A stretch of 64,000 nucleotides of DNA from Holophagae bacterium (lineage in GTDB: Bacteria > Acidobacteriota > Holophagae > Acanthopleuribacterales > Acanthopleuribacteraceae), in the NCBI GenBank assembly GCA_029263455.1, contig JAJCXM010000008.1, positions 62,001-126,000 on the forward strand. The letters run 5' to 3'. A model generated the notes under the pieces. The model ran no database searches, was not told the origin of the DNA, and worked only from the letters and a program-made list of their open reading frames with translations. The translations under genes and the position numbers were made by a program. Shown in pieces: positions 9,107 to 47,788 of the stretch (positions within the stretch are counted from its first letter, which is position 1; each line of letters opens with the position of its first letter).

Positions 9107-9987
9107 CTCAAACAAATAAAATCCTTTTTTCTTCCTTGATGGGCAACAGCCAGAAATTAGATGGTGGTGCCATGTATGGGAACGCACCAAAGGCTTTATG
9201 GTCCCGTTGGTCGCAAGCCGACGAATCCAATCGCATTGATTTGGCTTGTCGGGCACTTTTGATTGAAACCGAAGGGCACAAGGTCTTGCTTGAGACTGGC
9301 ATTGGCTGTTATATGAACCCCAAACTAAGGGAGCGCTATGGCGTCGTTGAGACCGAGCATGTATTGCTTTCGTCGTTGTCTGCACTAGGATTGACGCCTG
9401 ATGACATTGATATGATTGTCCTATCGCACCTGCATTTTGATCACGCAGGTGGCCTACTTAGTCCGTGGTCTGAGCAACAAGCCCCTGAGCTCTTGTTCAA
9501 GAATGCGCATATTTACGTGGGGCGTGAAGCTTATCAGCGTGCCTGTAATCCTCATCCACGCGACCGAGCATCGTTTATTCCCGAATTGATGGCGCTCTTA
9601 AAAGACAATCATCGTTTGCACTTATTTGAAGCTGACGAAGTGATTTATTTAGACGGGCTGCAAATACAATTTGTGCGCAGTGATGGCCATACGCCCGCCA
9701 TGATGTGTGCCGATCTGCGTTGGCAAAACGGTCGTATGGTATTTGCGGCAGACTTAATTCCCGGTCGCAATTGGGTTCATGTCCCAATCACCATGGGGTA
9801 TGATCGGTTTCCAGAGCATCTGATTGACGAAAAACGCGCCTTGCTAACCCAGCTTTCTGGGGATAAAGGGTTCTTGTTCTACACACACGACCCAAGTGTA
9901 GCCGTCTCGAAAGTGATGCACTTGCCGGAAAAAGATCGTTTTGTGGTTTGTCAGGAGGTCGATCACCTCGTGCGGCAGTCGCTCTAA
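9103..9987 (+). CDS. Metallo-beta-lactamase-fold hydrolase
   Basis: A 294-residue protein with the zinc-binding motif SHLHFDHAGG (about residues 107-116), the later histidine in DGHTP, the bridging Asp in FAADLIP, and a further His in the YTHDP region. This set is typical of glyoxalase II/AHL-lactonase/YtnP-like hydrolases that bind two metals. No signal peptide is visible, so it is cytoplasmic. Substrate cannot be assigned; lactonase or thioester activity are only family possibilities. It is coupled to hslU by an ATGA overlap and is the last gene of the proS-hslUV operon. Its stop overlaps by 4 bases the stop of the convergent outer-membrane gene. Confidence 0.85.
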   Translation: MTQTNKILFSSLMGNSQKLDGGAMYGNAPKALWSRWSQADESNRIDLACRALLIETEGHKVLLETGIGCYMNPKLRERYGVVETEHVLLSSLSALGLTPDDIDMIVLSHLHFDHAGGLLSPWSEQQAPELLFKNAHIYVGREAYQRACNPHPRDRASFIPELMALLKDNHRLHLFEADEVIYLDGLQIQFVRSDGHTPAMMCADLRWQNGRMVFAADLIPGRNWVHVPITMGYDRFPEHLIDEKRALLTQLSGDKGFLFYTHDPSVAVSKVMHLPEKDRFVVCQEVDHLVRQSL

Positions 9988-11636
9988 AAGAGCATACGCA
10001 CGTGACCCTCATAATAAGTAGAGGCCGCACTTGGATCCCAAGGCGTCTCATTTAGCAACCACCACATGGGAACTCTCGGCTGGCGAGCGGCGCTTAATTC
10101 GAAGGCAAAGTGAACTTGATTTCGTCCAAAGGGTAAAAGATTCTGACGGTAGCTCAGGGTTTGCTGTCTGAACGACATGTCGCTGCCTTCCAAATCAGAA
10201 AACTCTAACTTGAGTTCGCGATCTAAGTGAGGCTCCGCGATCGAACACTGCCAAGTTTGTGATTTGATACTAGCGGCTTGGTCATATTCCAGCACATCGC
10301 CGGAGATCAGCATACTTTGCTCATCGCGATGGCTCCATGACACCTGTGATCGCCAACTGCTTACCAACGGTAATTCGAGGCCTGCTGTCGTTTCTTTAAC
10401 TGAGCGATCAATTAGACTCTCTACCTGGAAGGGCGTAAGGTTGTTCTCTAAATAATCGCCATAAATGTCTTGCTCTGTGACCGCCGTTAAATGTTGCTGA
10501 TCTGCGAAGCCGCCAAAAAATGAAATCGATCCGAGCCGAGCGGCTGCTTGGTAGTCATGTTGAAAATCCGCCCGATCAGTTACGCCCAATTGGGCGGAAA
10601 GGGTCCAGCGGTCGCCCAAAGCGGATTGATGTCGTACATGCAATTGCGAGCGTGAAACCTGTTGATTCACGGAGTCTGCATATTCAACGCCTGCCTTCAT
10701 CGATAGCGAAGGTTCCCGTTGGGACTTCCAATCAGCGCCATACTGCAACATCCACAAATCATCATGGGCTTGGTCCCAACTGCGGGCCTCAAACTGATGG
10801 TTCATTTCCGAGTCGCTGATTCGATGACGGACAGACTGACTCAGTGCATAAGCTTGTTCTTTCTGCTCCGCGGTTCGGCTCTCTTGAAAACTGTATTCGG
10901 TGGTTAGGTCAACCAATCCTGTGTGTTGGGTGACGACACGTAGCGATTGGGTGCCTGCATCCAAAGACTTATTGGCCGATTCGATGTTGCCTGCGCCGAC
11001 CATGAGCGACCAATTCCTTACCGGCACGGTTACATCGGTGTTCACTTCTAATGATTCCTGAAGTTGGCGACCACTTTGCCGCGTAACGGCGGTATTGATG
11101 CGCACGCCTTTGACCTCAGTCGTCATGGCAAACTCCGAGACGTAACCGGCAGAGCCAGAAAAGCCCGGAAGTGTTCTCGTCGCTAACGAACCTTGTAGAC
11201 TTGTGTCTTGCGGCGTCAGCGAGGCTAATAATTCCCTTGCAGGGATCGGTGACATGAGATCTTTGTGAGGTTCGCGATTTGAATTGCGCAAGATGTGTTT
11301 GATCTCGGTTAGATCGCGATTGTTTCCTAGCGTCATTTCGCTTTCTAAAACGTGTTTTAAATCGATGACTGAGCGTTCTGCAGCCAGAATCACACTTTCA
11401 ATAGCTGGCAAATAACCCTTCTTGAGTACGATCACTCGATAGGGTCCCGGAGGTAATGAAGTCTGGTAAATACCGTTGCGGTCACTGGTGACACGCTGTA
11501 CCAATACCATGGACAGCTCATGGGTGACCACTATCTTGGCACCGCTCAATGAACGTTCGCTTTCGCCCTCGACGTGTCCGCGGAGGGTGGCGCCGTATGT
11601 GAACCCACTCGCTAAAGCGAGAAGCAACCACTTCAC
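9984..11636 (-). CDS. Outer-membrane barrel protein with carboxypeptidase-regulatory-like N-terminal domain
   Basis: A 550-residue secreted protein. After a signal peptide (cleavage near TYGA) comes a carboxypeptidase-regulatory-like/CarbopepD_reg Ig-fold of about residues 18-90, with the landmarks GAKIVVTHE, SDRNGIYQTSLPPGPYRV and VLKKGYLP. The rest (about 140-550) is a long run of alternating amphipathic strands ending in a C-terminal aromatic residue (EGHVRMLF), as expected for an outer-membrane beta-barrel. This layout matches the TonB-dependent-receptor-like oar/carboxypeptidase-regulatory family abundant in Acidobacteriota and Bacteroidota, though no clear plug domain is seen and it is shorter than Oar proteins. 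Start is GTG with GGGAGGA 5 bases upstream. Ligand unknown. Confidence 0.7.
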   Translation of the reverse strand: MKWLLLALASGFTYGATLRGHVEGESERSLSGAKIVVTHELSMVLVQRVTSDRNGIYQTSLPPGPYRVIVLKKGYLPAIESVILAAERSVIDLKHVLESEMTLGNNRDLTEIKHILRNSNREPHKDLMSPIPARELLASLTPQDTSLQGSLATRTLPGFSGSAGYVSEFAMTTEVKGVRINTAVTRQSGRQLQESLEVNTDVTVPVRNWSLMVGAGNIESANKSLDAGTQSLRVVTQHTGLVDLTTEYSFQESRTAEQKEQAYALSQSVRHRISDSEMNHQFEARSWDQAHDDLWMLQYGADWKSQREPSLSMKAGVEYADSVNQQVSRSQLHVRHQSALGDRWTLSAQLGVTDRADFQHDYQAAARLGSISFFGGFADQQHLTAVTEQDIYGDYLENNLTPFQVESLIDRSVKETTAGLELPLVSSWRSQVSWSHRDEQSMLISGDVLEYDQAASIKSQTWQCSIAEPHLDRELKLEFSDLEGSDMSFRQQTLSYRQNLLPFGRNQVHFAFELSAARQPRVPMWWLLNETPWDPSAASTYYEGHVRMLF

Positions 11637-38191: not shown

Positions 38192-41100
38192 TCAGCTACA
38201 GCCCGTGGTGGCGCCGCAGGTGTCGCATTTGAGGCAGGTGCCGTTACGCACGAGCGTCAAATTACCGCAGTCAGGGCAGGGGTCACCTTCGTAACCCTTG
38301 AGACGTGCAATTTTTTGGTGTGACAAGGTCTGTGACGATCCCCTGGTTGTCTTGCTCTTGGTTTGTACTTCCACTTTGGTAAGCTTCATGACTTCCGAAA
38401 ACTCCAGATCGGTATCGTCAAAACCAGGTTCATCGACGACAGGTGGTGTGACCGGGATATGGGCGTATTCATTGCGAGACAAGTACTGTAAACCCAGTTC
38501 CCTGAATACGAAATCAATGACTGAGTCGCTAAACTTGATGTTGTCATGTCCAACCACAGGTCCGCTGGGCTCGAATTTAGTAAATACGAAGGCGTCCAAA
38601 TACTCTTCTAAAGGCACGCCATATTGCAGACCCAGTGAAACGGCGATGGCAAAACAGTTCATCAGACTGCGAAAGGCGGCGCCTTCACGATGCATGTCTA
38701 AGAAGATCTCGCCCAAACGACCATCCGGATATTCGCCCGTTCGTAGGTAGAGTTTGTGGCCGCCGATGACGACTTTTTGCGTGTAACCATCGCGGCGGTT
38801 AGGCAGCGATTCACGTCTTGCTTTCACCATCTGCGTGAGTGATTTAGCGGTCGCAACCACACGGTCATGACTGCTTGTTTCTTCATCGAATTCACCGATA
38901 AGGTCGTCCGAGAAGGACGAAAGCGGTTGGCTCAACTTGGAACCATCTCGATAAAGTGCGATCGCCTTAACGCCTAGTTCCCAAGCACGGTGATAGACCT
39001 TACCGATCTGATCGACCGTTGCTTCGTTAGGCATGTTGATGGTCTTGGAGATGGCGCCTGATAAGAACGGCTGCGCCGCTGCCATGATGTTGAGGTGACC
39101 TTCATAAGCGATGAATCGTTTGCCTTTAGCGCCACACTTGTTGGCACAATCAAAGACAGGATAATGCTCTTCTTTTAGGAAGGGCGCCCCTTCAATGGTC
39201 ATGGTGCCGCAGCAATAGTCGTTGGCGGCTTGAATCTCTTCGCGGCCAAAACCCATTTCGCTGAGCAAATCGAAATTGAAATCATCGATGCGATCACGGG
39301 CAATACCTAATGATTGGATGAGGAAGTCTTCCCCTAGGGTGTATTTATTGAAGGCGAACTTGATGTCAAAGACGGAGCTTAATGATGACTCCAACTTTTC
39401 GAGTACCGAGCTGGTAAACCCTTTACTGCGTAATGACTCGTGATTGACTGATGGCGCACCTTTAAGGGTACCCGTGCCGCGACAATACTCGGTGATGCGT
39501 TGAATTTGATCAGCCGTGTAGCCTAAGTTCCGCAACGCCGAAGGCACGGAACTGTTGATGATCTTGAAATAGCCGCCGCCTGCAAGTTTCTTGAACTTGA
39601 CCAAGGCGAAATCGGGTTCGATACCGGTGGTATCACAATCCATCACTAAGCCGATGGTGCCTGTGGGTGCTAACACACTGACCTGAGCGTTGCGATAGCC
39701 GTCATGCTCACCCATTTCGAGCGCTTCGTCCCACGCCTGTTTAGCGGCGTCCAACAAATAGCCCGGACAATGACTGGAATCAATGCCCATGGGTTTGACT
39801 TCCAGTTGCTCGTATTCGCGTTCATCGGTGTTGTAGGCAGCGCGGCGATGGTTTCGAATGACGCGTAACATGTGGTCTTTGTTGCGTTTATAGCCCGGGA
39901 AGGGTCCCAGTTCTGCAGCCATTTCCGCAGATGTGCGGTAACAGATGCCGGTCATCAGTGATGTGATGGCGCCTGTTATCGCGTTGGCGCGATGTGAATG
40001 GTAGGGAATGCCACAAACCATGAGCATGGCGCCCAGATTGGCGTATCCCAATCCTAATGTGCGGAACTCATAAGATCGTTCGGCGATCTCTTTGCTTGGG
40101 AATTGCGCCATCAATACTGAGATCTCTAATACGACGGTCCACATGCGGGTGACATAGGTGAATTTCTCGACGTCAAAATGATTGTCCTCGGTGTCGAAAA
40201 AGCGTAGCAGGTTCATGGAGGCCAGGTTACATGCGGTGTCATCAAGGAACATGTATTCACTGCATGGGTTGGATGCATTGATGCGACCATCGTTGGGGCA
40301 GGTATGCCATTCGTTGATGGTGGTATCAAACTGAAGGCCAGGATCGGCACTACTCCACGCGGCGAATCCGATCTTTTGCCATAACTGTTCTGACGGCACT
40401 TCGCGTAGCGTTTCGCCATTTCTTCTAGAGGTCAGGTTCCAATTATCACCGTTATGTAGGGCGTGCAGAAAGTCATTTGTGATTCGCACGCTGTTGTTTG
40501 AGTTTTGACCACTCACGGTGCTGTAGGCTTCAGACTCCCAGTTCACGTCATATTCTGGAACGGCGAAATCTTTGTAGCCTTGTTGCGCCAGTTGCAGAAC
40601 ACGGTGGATATAGGACTGAGGAATGTGATTGTCGACCGCTTTGCGAATGGCCGTCATAAGCTTGCTGTTCTCTTTTGGGTCGTTCTTGAGTTCGCCCTCT
40701 TCGCTCCAGCAAGCACTGAGGATATCGCGTAGCGCCAGTTTGGTGGCTCGGCTACCTGCCACTAGGGCGGCAACTTTTTGCTCTTCAACCATCTTCCAAT
40801 CGATGTATTCTTCGATATCGGGATGGTCGATATCCAGGGTTACCATCTTGGCTGCGCGTCGTGTCGTGCCGCCGGATTTGATGGCACCTGCAGCGCGGTC
40901 GCCTATCTTAAGGAAGCTCATTAGTCCAGATGAACGGCCACCGCCCGAAAGTGATTCGCCGGCGGCGCGGATCCGGCTGAAATTAGAGCCGGTGCCGGAA
41001 CCGTATTTAAAGAGACGCGCTTCACGGGTCCAGAGATCCATGATGCCGCCCTCATTCACCAGGTCATCGGAAACACTTTGAATGAAACAGGCATGGGGTT

Positions 41101-41683
41101 GAGGATGAGTGTATGAGTCTTTTGAACGACATAGTTTGGTTGTCGATGGATCTACGTAAAAGTGACCTTGAGCAGGTCCATTAACACCATACGCCCACTC
41201 TAAACCTGTGTTAAACCATTGTGGAGAGTTGGGCGCCACCATTTGTCGGGCTAACATGAAGCTAAGCTCGTCGTAGAAAATGCGGGCATCTTCTTCGCTG
41301 GAAAAATAGTCGTGTTTCCAACCCCAATAAGTCCAGCAGCCAGCTAGCCGGCCAAAAACTTGGCGGGCATCGGTTTCCATCCCATAACGGGTGTCTTCGG
41401 GTATTTGTTCTAAGGATTTTTCGTCTGCCTGGCTGCGTTGCAACCAGCTAGGGACGTTTTTTTCGTTTATTTTGCGTACACAAGCCGGTACGCCAGCTTT
41501 TCTAAAGTATTTCTGGGCCAATACGTCAACGGCCACTTGTGACCAATCTGCCGGAACCGTGATGTTCTCCGCCGAAAAAACTAAGGTCCCATCAGGATTA
41601 CGTATTTCAGATGATTTTTTAACAAACTTGATGGAATCAAATGGAGTCTGACCGGCAACGGTAAAACAGCGCGTAAATTTCAT
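38192..41683 (-). CDS. nrdJ: Adenosylcobalamin-dependent (class II) ribonucleotide reductase
   Basis: Makes deoxyribonucleotides from ribonucleotides using B12 to start the thiyl radical. It is 1163 residues, the long NrdJ form. Blocks seen: [82 protein letters not shown] with catalytic cysteines, [20 protein letters not shown], and a TSCPD-like C-terminal part with [18 protein letters not shown]. It ends in a four-to-six-cysteine zinc ribbon ([18 protein letters not shown] ...). The upstream region has a sigma70-type promoter with paired NrdR boxes; a strong terminator follows. No cobalamin riboswitch was recognised. Confidence 0.95.
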
Positions 41684-41842: not shown

Positions 41843-41867
41843 TAGGTAAATACACCATATGTAGTGT
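41820..41867 (-). promoter_or_regulatory. Paired NrdR boxes at the nrdJ promoter
   Basis: ACACTACATATGGTGT (reverse strand, 41852-41867) fits the NrdR consensus acaCwAtATaTwGtgt at about 14 of 16 positions. A weaker second box CCACAAAATATGGGCA (41820-41835) lies 32 bases away, centre to centre about three helical turns, as known for NrdR sites. Box 2 fills the -10/-35 spacer, so binding should repress. Confidence 0.7.
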
Positions 41868-44210: not shown

Positions 44211-44262
44211 GGCCAATTTGTCGTTGCGGACAGACTCGTCGTGTTAATTGTTAGGAGTACAG

Positions 44263-45420
44263 GTGCCTTCCATTTCACCCTACCCATTTTGTCTTGATGT
44301 GCCCGCAGGAAAAGTCATTCCACGTCGAAGTCGTTTTTCCGGTTGGTACTTGGCGCCTCAGGAGCACAAGCCACAACTGGTCCTTCATTTGAACGACGAA
44401 CCCTACGTGGCTTTAGACCACGGCTTGCCGCGTCCAGACGTTGCGGTCGTATACCCGGATCATGAGACTAGTGATACAAGTGGTTTTGTTGGCGATCTGT
44501 GGATCTATGATGGCTTAGTTTCAAGCGATACATTTGATGTGTCTATTTGGGATCATGGATTTAAGGACCCGAGACACCTAATCAAACGAACCATGACGGT
44601 TAATGAAAAAACCGGTGGCGCTTGGCGTCGACGGAATTACGATCTGGCCGACCTACTTCAATGTACAGGCTGTTCGGGTTCGTTAGCTGTGGTTAAGCGT
44701 CATTGGGAATGTAAGTATTGCGGCAATTCGGGATTGGTCAGAGGACCCGCTTTCTTTTTTCTCGATAAAGGTCTTTATCCAAGTCAGACTGTTTTTGAGA
44801 CGACAAAAACGGCTCAATATGGCGAAGGTGCGCTTGACTTGCTTGAGCGAGCAGGTAACGGGTTGGTACTTGATTTTGGCGCGGGCAATTCACCCGACTC
44901 GGCTTTACGTGCCAATATTTGCTACCTAGATATCCAACAATACGCGCATACCGACGTTATCTCGCCAGGAATCGAGATCCCATTTAAGGACAATTGTTTC
45001 GATGCCGTGGTTAGTCAAAGTGTTTTCGAGCACATTCCAGATCCGTTTATGACGGCGCGTGAACTCTATCGTGTCCTAAAGCCAGGCGGCGAAATTTTTG
45101 TTGATACCGCGTTTATGCAACCTTTTCATGCCGGTCCGAGCCACTACTTTAATATGTCAAAATATGGGTTAAGGCGTGTCTTTCATATGTTCGAAGAGAA
45201 AGAAGTTGGCATTGCGCCCTATCACTTGCCTTCATTTGGGTTAATGATGCAGCTCGACATGGTTTTGCCGGACATGGTTGCTGGTGAATGGAAAACACAT
45301 TTGCAGGAATTCCGCGAACATTTAGGTCGTGATAATCAGGGGCTCGATCGTGATCTAGGTCCTATCGGTCGTGAACGTTTAGCGGCAGGGTGGTTCTTTC
45401 GCGGCTTCAAACCTCGATGA
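44263..45420 (+). CDS. SAM-dependent methyltransferase with N-terminal zinc-ribbon region
   Basis: A 385-residue protein. The middle part has a four-cysteine cluster (LLQCTGCSGSL ... WECKYCGNSG, about residues 132-157), like the Trm112-type ribbon before some methyltransferases. The class I methyltransferase domain follows (about 190-320): motif I VLDFGAGNS, then IEIPFKDNCFDAVVSQSVFEHIPDP and a YRVLKPGGEIFVDTAF strand typical of Methyltransf_11. The first 125 residues are unassigned. GTG 44263 is chosen because AGGAG lies 5 bases upstream; the frame opens at TTG 44248. The gene is bracketed by a 39-bp direct repeat, suggesting insertion. Substrate unknown. Confidence 0.78.
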   Translation: MPSISPYPFCLDVPAGKVIPRRSRFSGWYLAPQEHKPQLVLHLNDEPYVALDHGLPRPDVAVVYPDHETSDTSGFVGDLWIYDGLVSSDTFDVSIWDHGFKDPRHLIKRTMTVNEKTGGAWRRRNYDLADLLQCTGCSGSLAVVKRHWECKYCGNSGLVRGPAFFFLDKGLYPSQTVFETTKTAQYGEGALDLLERAGNGLVLDFGAGNSPDSALRANICYLDIQQYAHTDVISPGIEIPFKDNCFDAVVSQSVFEHIPDPFMTARELYRVLKPGGEIFVDTAFMQPFHAGPSHYFNMSKYGLRRVFHMFEEKEVGIAPYHLPSFGLMMQLDMVLPDMVAGEWKTHLQEFREHLGRDNQGLDRDLGPIGRERLAAGWFFRGFKPR

Positions 45421-45591
45421 ACTCAAGGTACCTATTTTGGGAAAAGCCACTTAGATTTGTGCGAAAGTCTCATAGCTAAACAAGCCATTCGCTCGATAGT
45501 TGTCATGGCGTTGGATTACCTTAGCGCCTCAAATGGGGCCTACTTAGGCTATGCGCTGCAATCGTAGATTTATCGTTGATCAAAAGTACGG

Positions 45592-45652: not shown

Positions 45653-47788
45653 TTGGACCATCCAAACGACAAGCAAAGATCCAGAAAGCCACGTTCAGCT
45701 GAACACATTGATCGTCTCAATGAGTTTCACCGTCATGCCGCTTTGTTTGATGGCACAAAAGATCAGGAACCTAGTTTAGATTTTGACCGATTGGCGGCAT
45801 TGCTGGGTCAAGATTTCGATATCCCTTATCACGAAGTACATGATGTGTTGCGATACGTGCGTGGCCATGTCAGCGATTTGGGTTTTGCAAAGCCACCAGC
45901 TTCGTTGGTAGTCACGTGGGTTGCTGGACTGCTACGCCAACGCGGCTATGACATCGGTGACCTACCGGTGGATGCCGTTGAAATGCCCCTTGAACACGTC
46001 GAGCTGAATATTTTCCATCCTACTGGCGCATTTGCCGGCTCTGATCAAAACCCTGAAGCCACTTCTCGGCGCTTGGCTGAGCGCATAAAAACGCAGTTTG
46101 CCGTGCAGCGGGTGTATCAACCAGAAGTGGTTGAAGCCCATGAAAAAGGCATCATCGGACTGATGGACTTGGGTGCGGTAGATCGCCCTCACGATATGTT
46201 CCTGACCCCCGACTACATCAAGGCCAATGGTTTGCCTGCATCCAGTTGGTCACCAAATGCAGGTCCTGCCAAACGCCCGGAGGTCCTGCTCGCCCATCTG
46301 GTGAGATTCACAAGGGAACTGCAGAACCAATTTGCAGGCGAGGTTCATTGGGGCTTCGTCAATACCTTGCTGATGCCGTTCTTAGCGCCCTTGAATGACA
46401 AGGAACTTGAGCAGTTCTGTCAACAAATGGTGTTCGAGTTCGCTCAGCTCAATGCCGGCCGTGGCGGTTCGGGTCCCAGAGTCACACTTGATTTCGATTT
46501 CGATCTGCCGCGACCTTTGCGAGCCGTACATGCGGTTGCGCCCGGTGGTGGATTAGACGTTAGGCCGCTAGAGAGCTATGCCTCAGACTTGCAGCGCTTC
46601 AACCGCATTCTGCTAGATGTTTTGGCACGAGGAGATCAGCGTGCGGCACCCTTCTTGCGCCCGCAATTCGTATTCCACTTGAACAACCGCGATACGGCCT
46701 GGTCTGAACTTCACCAAAAACTATATCGTGTGGCTGTTAGTCAAGGAAACCCAGTCATCGCCATTAGTGACGGTCATCGTGGCTTTGGCGCCATGGGCCG
46801 ATGGCCACTCAATCATCCAGATTTATTGGCTAATATGGCGCATCCGGCTCGTTTACGTGGCTTTTCCATTAGTGCTGTGGCCATTAATGTCGCCCACCTT
46901 TGGATGAAGGATGAAGGCCAAGATTTCGAACGAGGCTTAAGAGAGGCATTAGAGTTAACCGTTTCCGCCCACCGCCAGAAACGGATGTTTGTTTCGCGAC
47001 TGATGGCTTATGGCGCTCGTGGACCGCTTCGCTTCTTAAGACATCGTTTTAATGGACAGCCGTTCTTGAAGTTGGACGATTCGACGCAAGCGATCCACCT
47101 CATTGGTCTGGCTGAAATGGCAAGGTTGGCGATAGGAACGCCGTTGGCAACCCCAGACGCGGTCACACGTAAGGCCAGTCAGCTATTGTCGGAAATTCAG
47201 GCGGTCATGAATGAACTCAACCAACTGCACAAATTAAAGATGATCCTGTCTGAACCTGCAGATGATGATGTCGCCTATCGCTTCGCCAAGTTAGATATGA
47301 AGGCTTTTGGGCAAAAATTCAGTCCCTACATGCTGCACCAGCCTCGTCAAGCGGAGCCGATTTATAGTACGGGCACCTCGCTATTCACCTGCGATCCGCT
47401 TTCTTGGAAGGCGCGTCTGCGGCTCGAAGGCCAGTTACACACAGCCGTTAACGGTAACTGCGACGTGACCCTGTTCTCACGAGACCGTGAGTCTAGTGAT
47501 GATCGGCTACAACAGTTGCATCATGTCCTGTTAGAGAGTGGCGCACACCGCTTACGCTTGGCGCCTGACTATCGCTTATGCCTAAATTGTTATTTTGTTT
47601 TTGTAGATGCCGACCGTACAGAACCTTGCCCACGTTGCCGTGGTGGCTTGGTTTCGGACTATGGTTTTGCGCAGAGCGGATATGCTCCGGTATCTACTCT
47701 GTGTCGCGGGAAACGTGCCGAGTGGGAGCTGCGCACCCGTTGGAACGATGGCGAAGAACAACCGCAACCCTCCTTACCGCTTGGCTAA
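45653..47788 (+). CDS. NrdD-like (class III) glycyl-radical protein without a visible catalytic cysteine
   Basis: About 711 residues, related to anaerobic ribonucleotide reductase of the Thermotoga/archaeal type. Supporting blocks: VHWGFVNTLLMPFLAPL, VTLDFDFDLPRPL, FVFHLNN, ISAVAINVAHLW (cf. VTINLPR). A C-terminal four-Cys zinc site (CLNC...CPRC) is followed by SGYAPV...GKRAEWELRTRW, where Gly676 (bases 47678-47680) is the expected radical glycine. The Cys of the MGCR/CCRL active-site motif is absent: the aligned stretch reads AMGRWP (46790-46807), and no Cys occurs over roughly 300 residues around it. No ATP-cone is seen and no activase NrdG is nearby. Start uncertain: TTG 45653 has GAGGG upstream; ATG 45626 overlaps the putative -10. 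Confidence 0.7.
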   Translation: MDHPNDKQRSRKPRSAEHIDRLNEFHRHAALFDGTKDQEPSLDFDRLAALLGQDFDIPYHEVHDVLRYVRGHVSDLGFAKPPASLVVTWVAGLLRQRGYDIGDLPVDAVEMPLEHVELNIFHPTGAFAGSDQNPEATSRRLAERIKTQFAVQRVYQPEVVEAHEKGIIGLMDLGAVDRPHDMFLTPDYIKANGLPASSWSPNAGPAKRPEVLLAHLVRFTRELQNQFAGEVHWGFVNTLLMPFLAPLNDKELEQFCQQMVFEFAQLNAGRGGSGPRVTLDFDFDLPRPLRAVHAVAPGGGLDVRPLESYASDLQRFNRILLDVLARGDQRAAPFLRPQFVFHLNNRDTAWSELHQKLYRVAVSQGNPVIAISDGHRGFGAMGRWPLNHPDLLANMAHPARLRGFSISAVAINVAHLWMKDEGQDFERGLREALELTVSAHRQKRMFVSRLMAYGARGPLRFLRHRFNGQPFLKLDDSTQAIHLIGLAEMARLAIGTPLATPDAVTRKASQLLSEIQAVMNELNQLHKLKMILSEPADDDVAYRFAKLDMKAFGQKFSPYMLHQPRQAEPIYSTGTSLFTCDPLSWKARLRLEGQLHTAVNGNCDVTLFSRDRESSDDRLQQLHHVLLESGAHRLRLAPDYRLCLNCYFVFVDADRTEPCPRCRGGLVSDYGFAQSGYAPVSTLCRGKRAEWELRTRWNDGEEQPQPSLPLG

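Follow-up and report, generated by a model that had tools for sequence, protein, structure and literature searches.

To our knowledge, inactive catalytic subunits of ribonucleotide reductase (RNR) have been described only in betaherpesviruses. The viral proteins HCMV UL45 and MCMV M45 are inactive homologues of the RNR large subunit (PMC5469499, PMC11772975). The bacterial protein studied here would resemble them as an RNR catalytic subunit that lost its activity and was reused, but UL45 and M45 are viral class I R1 proteins that act on host signalling, and they are unrelated to it in lineage and mechanism.

In fold, the comparison is with the class III reductase NrdD (T. maritima 4U3E/4COI, P. 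copri 8P23, T4 1H7B). Our protein shares with NrdD the ten-stranded barrel, the finger loop, a C-terminal zinc ribbon with a loop into the barrel, and the positions of the active-site Asn, the Gln of the specificity site (s-site) and the Arg of loop 2. In contrast to NrdD, it lacks the thiyl-radical Cys, the radical Gly, the first barrel Cys and the NxN, HxHD and TPAE motifs, and its genome encodes no activase over cut-off. The first-strand Cys (T. maritima Cys125) is conserved in all known RNRs, while an essential Cys pair of the T. maritima enzyme sits away from the finger-loop tip (PMC4493059). The NxN flap, HxHD and TPAE have been described for the P. copri and T. maritima enzymes (PMC11226230, PMC4493059). 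Aminoacyl radical enzymes (AAREs) have the glycyl-radical-enzyme fold with Ala, Ser or Thr at the radical site; unlike the pseudo-NrdD clade, which has neither and also carries D, N, Q, L or H at that site, they keep the catalytic Cys and an activase (PMC11528403). A literature search for NrdD as a pseudoenzyme gave no match. The only prior art found was the table of a 2026 species description, which lists for Chloracidobacterium an "NrdD-like paralog (Class III), no NrdG" (PMC12816986). Like ours, this is a paralogue without an activase; the table entry makes no mention of residue loss, a clade or nrdR linkage.

The window analysed here is a stretch of 64,000 nucleotides from contig JAJCXM010000008.1 of a Holophagae bacterium (GCA_029263455.1). 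Judging by its sequence, the NrdD-like protein encoded in it is almost certainly dead as a class III RNR.

45653 to 47788, plus strand: gene for the putative NrdD-fold pseudoenzyme (711 aa from the TTG at 45653, 745 aa from the ATG at 45551)

The open reading frame of this pseudo-nrdD is intact, without a frame break. The DNA 5′ of 45653 is similar to that of the sister genome L050 but lies in another frame (read by eye), so the TTG start chosen in a preliminary description of the sequence is plausible. Residues are numbered here from the ATG at 45551; subtracting 34 gives the numbering from the TTG.

The protein matches PF13597 (NRDD; E 5e-47, 161 bits vs a cut-off of 26) as the sole NRDD match of its genome, and it misses the cut-off of the NrdD equivalog TIGR02487 (117 vs 326 bits). 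An AF2 model based on 33 aligned sequences (pLDDT 83.5, pTM 0.79) was compared with the solved NrdDs of T4, T. maritima, S. thermophilus and P. copri, giving VIA Z scores of 28–30 with an rmsd of about 3 Å over 470–540 residues. For other glycyl radical enzymes, Z was 17–20. As the scores against NrdDs exceed these, it is well supported that the predicted structure keeps the full NrdD fold, with the finger loop and the C-terminal zinc domain. The preliminary description had called the fold blocks preserved, which is borne out by the PF13597 match and a Z of about 30. The choice of query mattered in these searches. A single-protein phmmer search found no PDB relative and a profile search did; likewise, scanning contigs with a single-protein query gave zero matches, while an alignment query recovered homologues.

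46193 to 46195, plus strand: site of the first barrel Cys (T. maritima Cys125, P. copri Cys171), here Asp215, placed by alignment
46784 to 46807, plus strand: finger loop FGAMGRWP without the thiyl-radical Cys, from alignment, model and Cys positions

Cysteines occur at residues 3, 17, 290, 614, 637, 677, 680, 693, 696 and 718. The finger-loop tip reads FGAMG and residues 291–613 contain no Cys, so there is no finger-loop MGCR and no SCCR or MCCR. The thiyl-radical Cys is indeed missing, as had been reported. The broader claim that no cysteine occurs across the central barrel holds for residues 291–613 but is overstated, since Cys290, Cys614 and Cys637 are core residues; none of them is conserved across the family. 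A T. maritima-type Cys pair off the finger-loop tip was ruled out by the absence of Cys from the region. In the alignment, the thiyl Cys column is empty of Cys in all 47 pseudo members. In genus g5 (L052, and L053 from Acanthopleuribacter pedis), the finger loop reads RRDCG, with a Cys in a position that is F or L in other members. Elsewhere in the protein, Cys718 is found in 7/7 family members, and in 4/7 a Cys precedes the former radical-glycine site by two residues.

Losses that the preliminary description had overlooked extend to the first barrel Cys, the NxN flap, the HxHD triphosphate motif and the TPAE loop. Each is found in 0/7 proteins of the window's family and in 0–1 of the 22 proteins from other Acidobacteriota. 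All four are present, together with the radical Gly, in both L063 and L064, which are apparently intact.

47675 to 47680, plus strand: Ser709 at the radical-glycine site, then Gly710 of SGY, placed by spacing and alignment

In L063 and L064 (VTGYF), the radical Gly lies 13 residues past the fourth zinc Cys, and the GK of the C-terminal tail follows 11 residues later. Counted from either side, the corresponding residue of the window protein is Ser709, the G of SGY being residue 710, and the site reads FAQSGY vs the RVxG[FWY] of NrdD. The seven family proteins have S,S,S,S,S,A,A at the site and G,G,G,G,S,A,N at the position of the SGY glycine. Most other Acidobacteriota carry D, N, Q, S, L or H here, and L067 carries G. 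A radical Gly was thus counted in 0/7 family members, in 0–1 of the 22 other Acidobacteriota proteins and in 2/2 of L063 and L064. Reading Gly710 as the radical Gly by means of a one-residue gap was rejected, because the spacing on both sides fits Ser709 and three of the seven family members have no Gly there. Since neither register keeps a Gly across the seven proteins, the earlier claim that the radical glycine (SGY) is preserved is refuted: a Ser occupies the site, and the Gly of SGY comes one residue later.

A search for a cognate activase had also been proposed. Among the 18 Acidobacteriota genomes that encode the long form of the protein (the window's own and 17 others), no NrdG (TIGR02491) or NrdG2 (TIGR02495) scored over cut-off. 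The best score in the window genome was 37 bits for NrdG2 (cut-off 131), and the highest NrdG score among relatives was 84 bits in G004 (cut-off 126). NrdG2 was over cut-off in the genomes of both L063 and L064 and also in genomes with a separate ordinary NrdD. As all 18 genomes are without an activase over cut-off, assembly gaps are an unlikely cause.

These results bear on whether the protein could still work by radical catalysis, either through an aminoacyl radical on Ser709, in the manner of AAREs, or through a glycyl radical on Gly710. Ser or Ala occupies the site in the family, enzymes with Ala, Ser or Thr radicals exist (PMC11528403), and the two Acanthopleuribacter-type proteins have a finger-loop Cys. 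However, this last Cys takes the position of F or L in other members, the radical site is occupied by D, N, Q, L or H in relatives, and AAREs keep both their catalytic Cys and their partner activases (PMC11528403), whereas here the Cys is missing and all activase scores stay below cut-off. For the latter reason we rejected the AAREs as a home for the protein, and a surviving radical enzyme of either kind seems highly improbable. There is strong support for the statement that the protein would be unable to reduce ribonucleotides: the thiyl Cys, the radical Gly, the first Cys and the substrate motifs are lost, and the genome has no activase over cut-off. Two options had been offered for what it does instead. 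Another radical chemistry is disfavoured, with no radical Gly, no thiyl Cys and no activase over cut-off in 18 genomes; a regulatory relative appears more likely.

38192 to 41683, minus strand: nrdJ, class II B12-dependent RNR (PRK07562, 1978 bits, cut-off 1737)

The B12-type nrdJ reported 4 kb away was recovered well over its cut-off and is the likely source of dNTPs in this organism. Having nrdJ within 4 kb is limited to the window genus, with an identical gene order in the sister genome L058; the general rule is a different class I or II RNR elsewhere in the genome. Because nrdJ, nrdA or RTPR genes are present, reductase activity of the NrdD-like protein would be dispensable. Between the divergent starts of nrdJ and comEC, at 41852–41867, lies an NrdR-box-like palindrome, ACACCATATGTAGTGT, and a weaker one occupies the equivalent place in the sister genome (L058:7638). 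No NrdR box was found at pseudo-nrdD; the NrdR-box-like site is upstream of nrdJ. An ORF for a SAM-dependent methyltransferase (44248–45420) separates comEC from pseudo-nrdD. It is missing there in L058, where comEC ends at 9952 and pseudo-nrdD starts at 10016, which indicates an insertion or a deletion. In L067, L074, L076 and L077, thiD adjoins the start of pseudo-nrdD or overlaps it, with carB downstream in some of them, a possible operon.

With a working RNR in the same genomes, pseudo-nrdD might be a relic in neutral decay whose function is covered by nrdJ. This is contradicted by its conservation. Orthologues with intact ORFs are present in 7/7 genomes of the window's family, the zinc site is invariant, and dN/dS (Nei-Gojobori) is 0.054 in the closest pair of family members and 0.118 in a second pair; these closer pairs were used because dS is saturated between the window protein and G001. 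The gene is under purifying selection and shows no decay. We therefore regard a relic as scarcely tenable, and orthologues and dN/dS also reject a sequencing error or pseudogene. The suggestion that nrdJ relieves selection on this gene does not hold if relaxed selection is meant.

Named relatives with pseudo-NrdD include Sulfidibacter corallicola and Acanthopleuribacter pedis, which places the window in the Acanthopleuribacteraceae, a family of marine Acidobacteriota. Beyond the family, homologues were found among other Acidobacteriota, KSB3 and Hydrogenedentota; of 68 Hydrogenedentota genomes, most have one. In a maximum-likelihood tree of 67 proteins, the pseudo-NrdD clade is split from 19 ordinary NrdDs with full support. 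L063 and L064 fall inside this clade, joined with KSB3 at a support of 96; deep branching within it is unsupported either way, and several branches are long. As L063 and L064 keep everything while the KSB3 proteins joined with them keep only the first Cys of the catalytic features, the catalytic residues were probably lost more than once. Short (about 590–610 aa), very divergent pseudo-NrdDs occur together with an ordinary NrdD in Holophagae family f3 (L056, L057, L106–L109), and the f3 genome G010 encodes a short pseudo-NrdD, an ordinary NrdD and NrdG2.

46421 to 46423, plus strand: Gln291, equivalent by alignment to T. maritima Gln210, which sits by the effector Mg2+ of the specificity site; retained
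46460 to 46462, plus strand: Arg304, equivalent by alignment to T. maritima Arg221 of loop 2; retained in 7/7 family members
47228 to 47233, plus strand: His560-Lys561, nearly invariant in Acidobacteriota long-form pseudoenzymes
47579 to 47638, plus strand: zinc ribbon with Cys677, Cys680, Cys693 and Cys696, retained in 7/7 family members and 22/22 other Acidobacteriota
45779 to 45952, plus strand: remnant of an N-terminal ATP-cone, helices kept and nucleotide-binding hairpin lost, from alignment with PF03477-scoring relatives

Selection has left several parts of the protein in place. The zinc site is preserved, as had been described, and its four Cys are kept in 29/29 Acidobacteriota long forms. 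The active-site Asn446 is retained in every member, the s-site Gln291 in 25/29 and the loop-2 Arg304 in 28/29 Acidobacteriota long forms; the loop-2 Gln is lost in the window family. Conservation of Gln291 and Arg304 might reflect folding or dimerisation alone. The ATP-cone is kept in most relatives, most strongly in Hydrogenedentota (4e-23 in L082). In the window family it is degenerate, with only helices left: a PF03477 search gave no match in the window protein, and the AF2 model shows three helices there. An ATP-cone domain is encoded elsewhere in the same genome (G000:C4:254159-254401), in a 425-aa ORF that is neither an RNR nor NrdR and that is also found in the sister genome.

Where the Acidobacteriota pseudoenzymes have His560-Lys561, nearly all active NrdDs have T-G, and the intact L063 and L064 have Y-N. 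The pair thus looks like a gained feature, and it raises the question of a new enzyme, in which the barrel would use His560, Lys561 and Asn446 for some other reaction without radicals, such as one on nucleotides. A gain beyond mere losses, the invariant Asn446 and a dN/dS of 0.05 would fit such an enzyme. On the other hand, the HxHD, NxN and TPAE motifs for the substrate triphosphate are gone, and His560-Lys561 is conserved neither in Hydrogenedentota nor in the short f3 form. We also know of no non-radical enzyme with the NrdD fold, and we hold a new enzyme to be quite unlikely.

NrdR is a zinc-ribbon and ATP-cone repressor of RNR genes. It shares both elements with the pseudo-NrdD group, and perhaps also a part in the control of RNR genes, and is its genomic neighbour in Hydrogenedentota and KSB3. 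It differs in being a small DNA-binding protein without a barrel, and the relation is one of association, not of barrel homology. In Hydrogenedentota, nrdR lies directly upstream of pseudo-nrdD at six named loci; a wider search found it there in 8/30 loci, partly overlapping the six, and in 3/8 of these the gap is 4–7 bp on the same strand. In KSB3 the gene order is pseudo-nrdD, nrdR, nrdJ. None of the sampled Acidobacteriota loci has nrdR as a neighbour. The linkage could also be an inheritance from an ancestral active nrdD locus.

Mainly on account of this linkage in Hydrogenedentota and KSB3, we favour a role in dNTP control and lean slightly towards the protein being a regulator or scaffold in deoxynucleotide metabolism. 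As the linkage is absent from the sampled Acidobacteriota loci, for the window protein itself we infer this role. Alternatively, it could be a non-catalytic scaffold, or a binder of nucleic acids or proteins, that works outside dNTP control through its zinc ribbon and His560-Lys561. The zinc Cys kept in all Acidobacteriota members, a His-Lys pair nearly invariant only in the Acidobacteriota pseudoenzymes, the absence of nrdR linkage from Acidobacteriota and the lack of an ATP-cone in the window family are all consistent with such a binder. It leaves unexplained, however, the nrdR and nrdJ linkage in two other phyla and the retained s-site Gln and loop-2 Arg, and we consider it unlikely.

The reading that we prefer, a role in dNTP control, would have the window protein as a catalytically dead NrdD paralogue, or pseudoenzyme, held by purifying selection. 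L063 and L064 would be surviving members of the active NrdD lineage from which it descends, and it would have retained a non-catalytic role. At the former specificity site it may bind (d)NTPs and, as a dimer scaffold, regulate or support a working RNR (here NrdJ) or the repressor NrdR. In relatives with an ATP-cone, its a-site would add ATP/dATP sensing; in the window family the cone is degenerate. That pseudo-NrdD serves as an ATP-cone in trans for the cone-less NrdJ is unsupported in the window family, its own cone being degenerate. Taken across phyla, the clade might sense (d)NTPs and, together with NrdR, co-regulate ribonucleotide reduction, a tentative proposal that we think possible but doubtful.

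Pseudo-NrdDs lead to false calls of an "anaerobic RNR" when metabolism in these phyla is inferred from family matches. The apparently intact sister lineage of L063 and L064, together with relatives in three phyla, would allow the path from an essential enzyme to a non-catalytic protein to be traced residue by residue. The linkage to nrdR suggests an extra layer of dNTP control. If the co-regulator proposal is true, a dead reductase would have become a control device for its own replacement.
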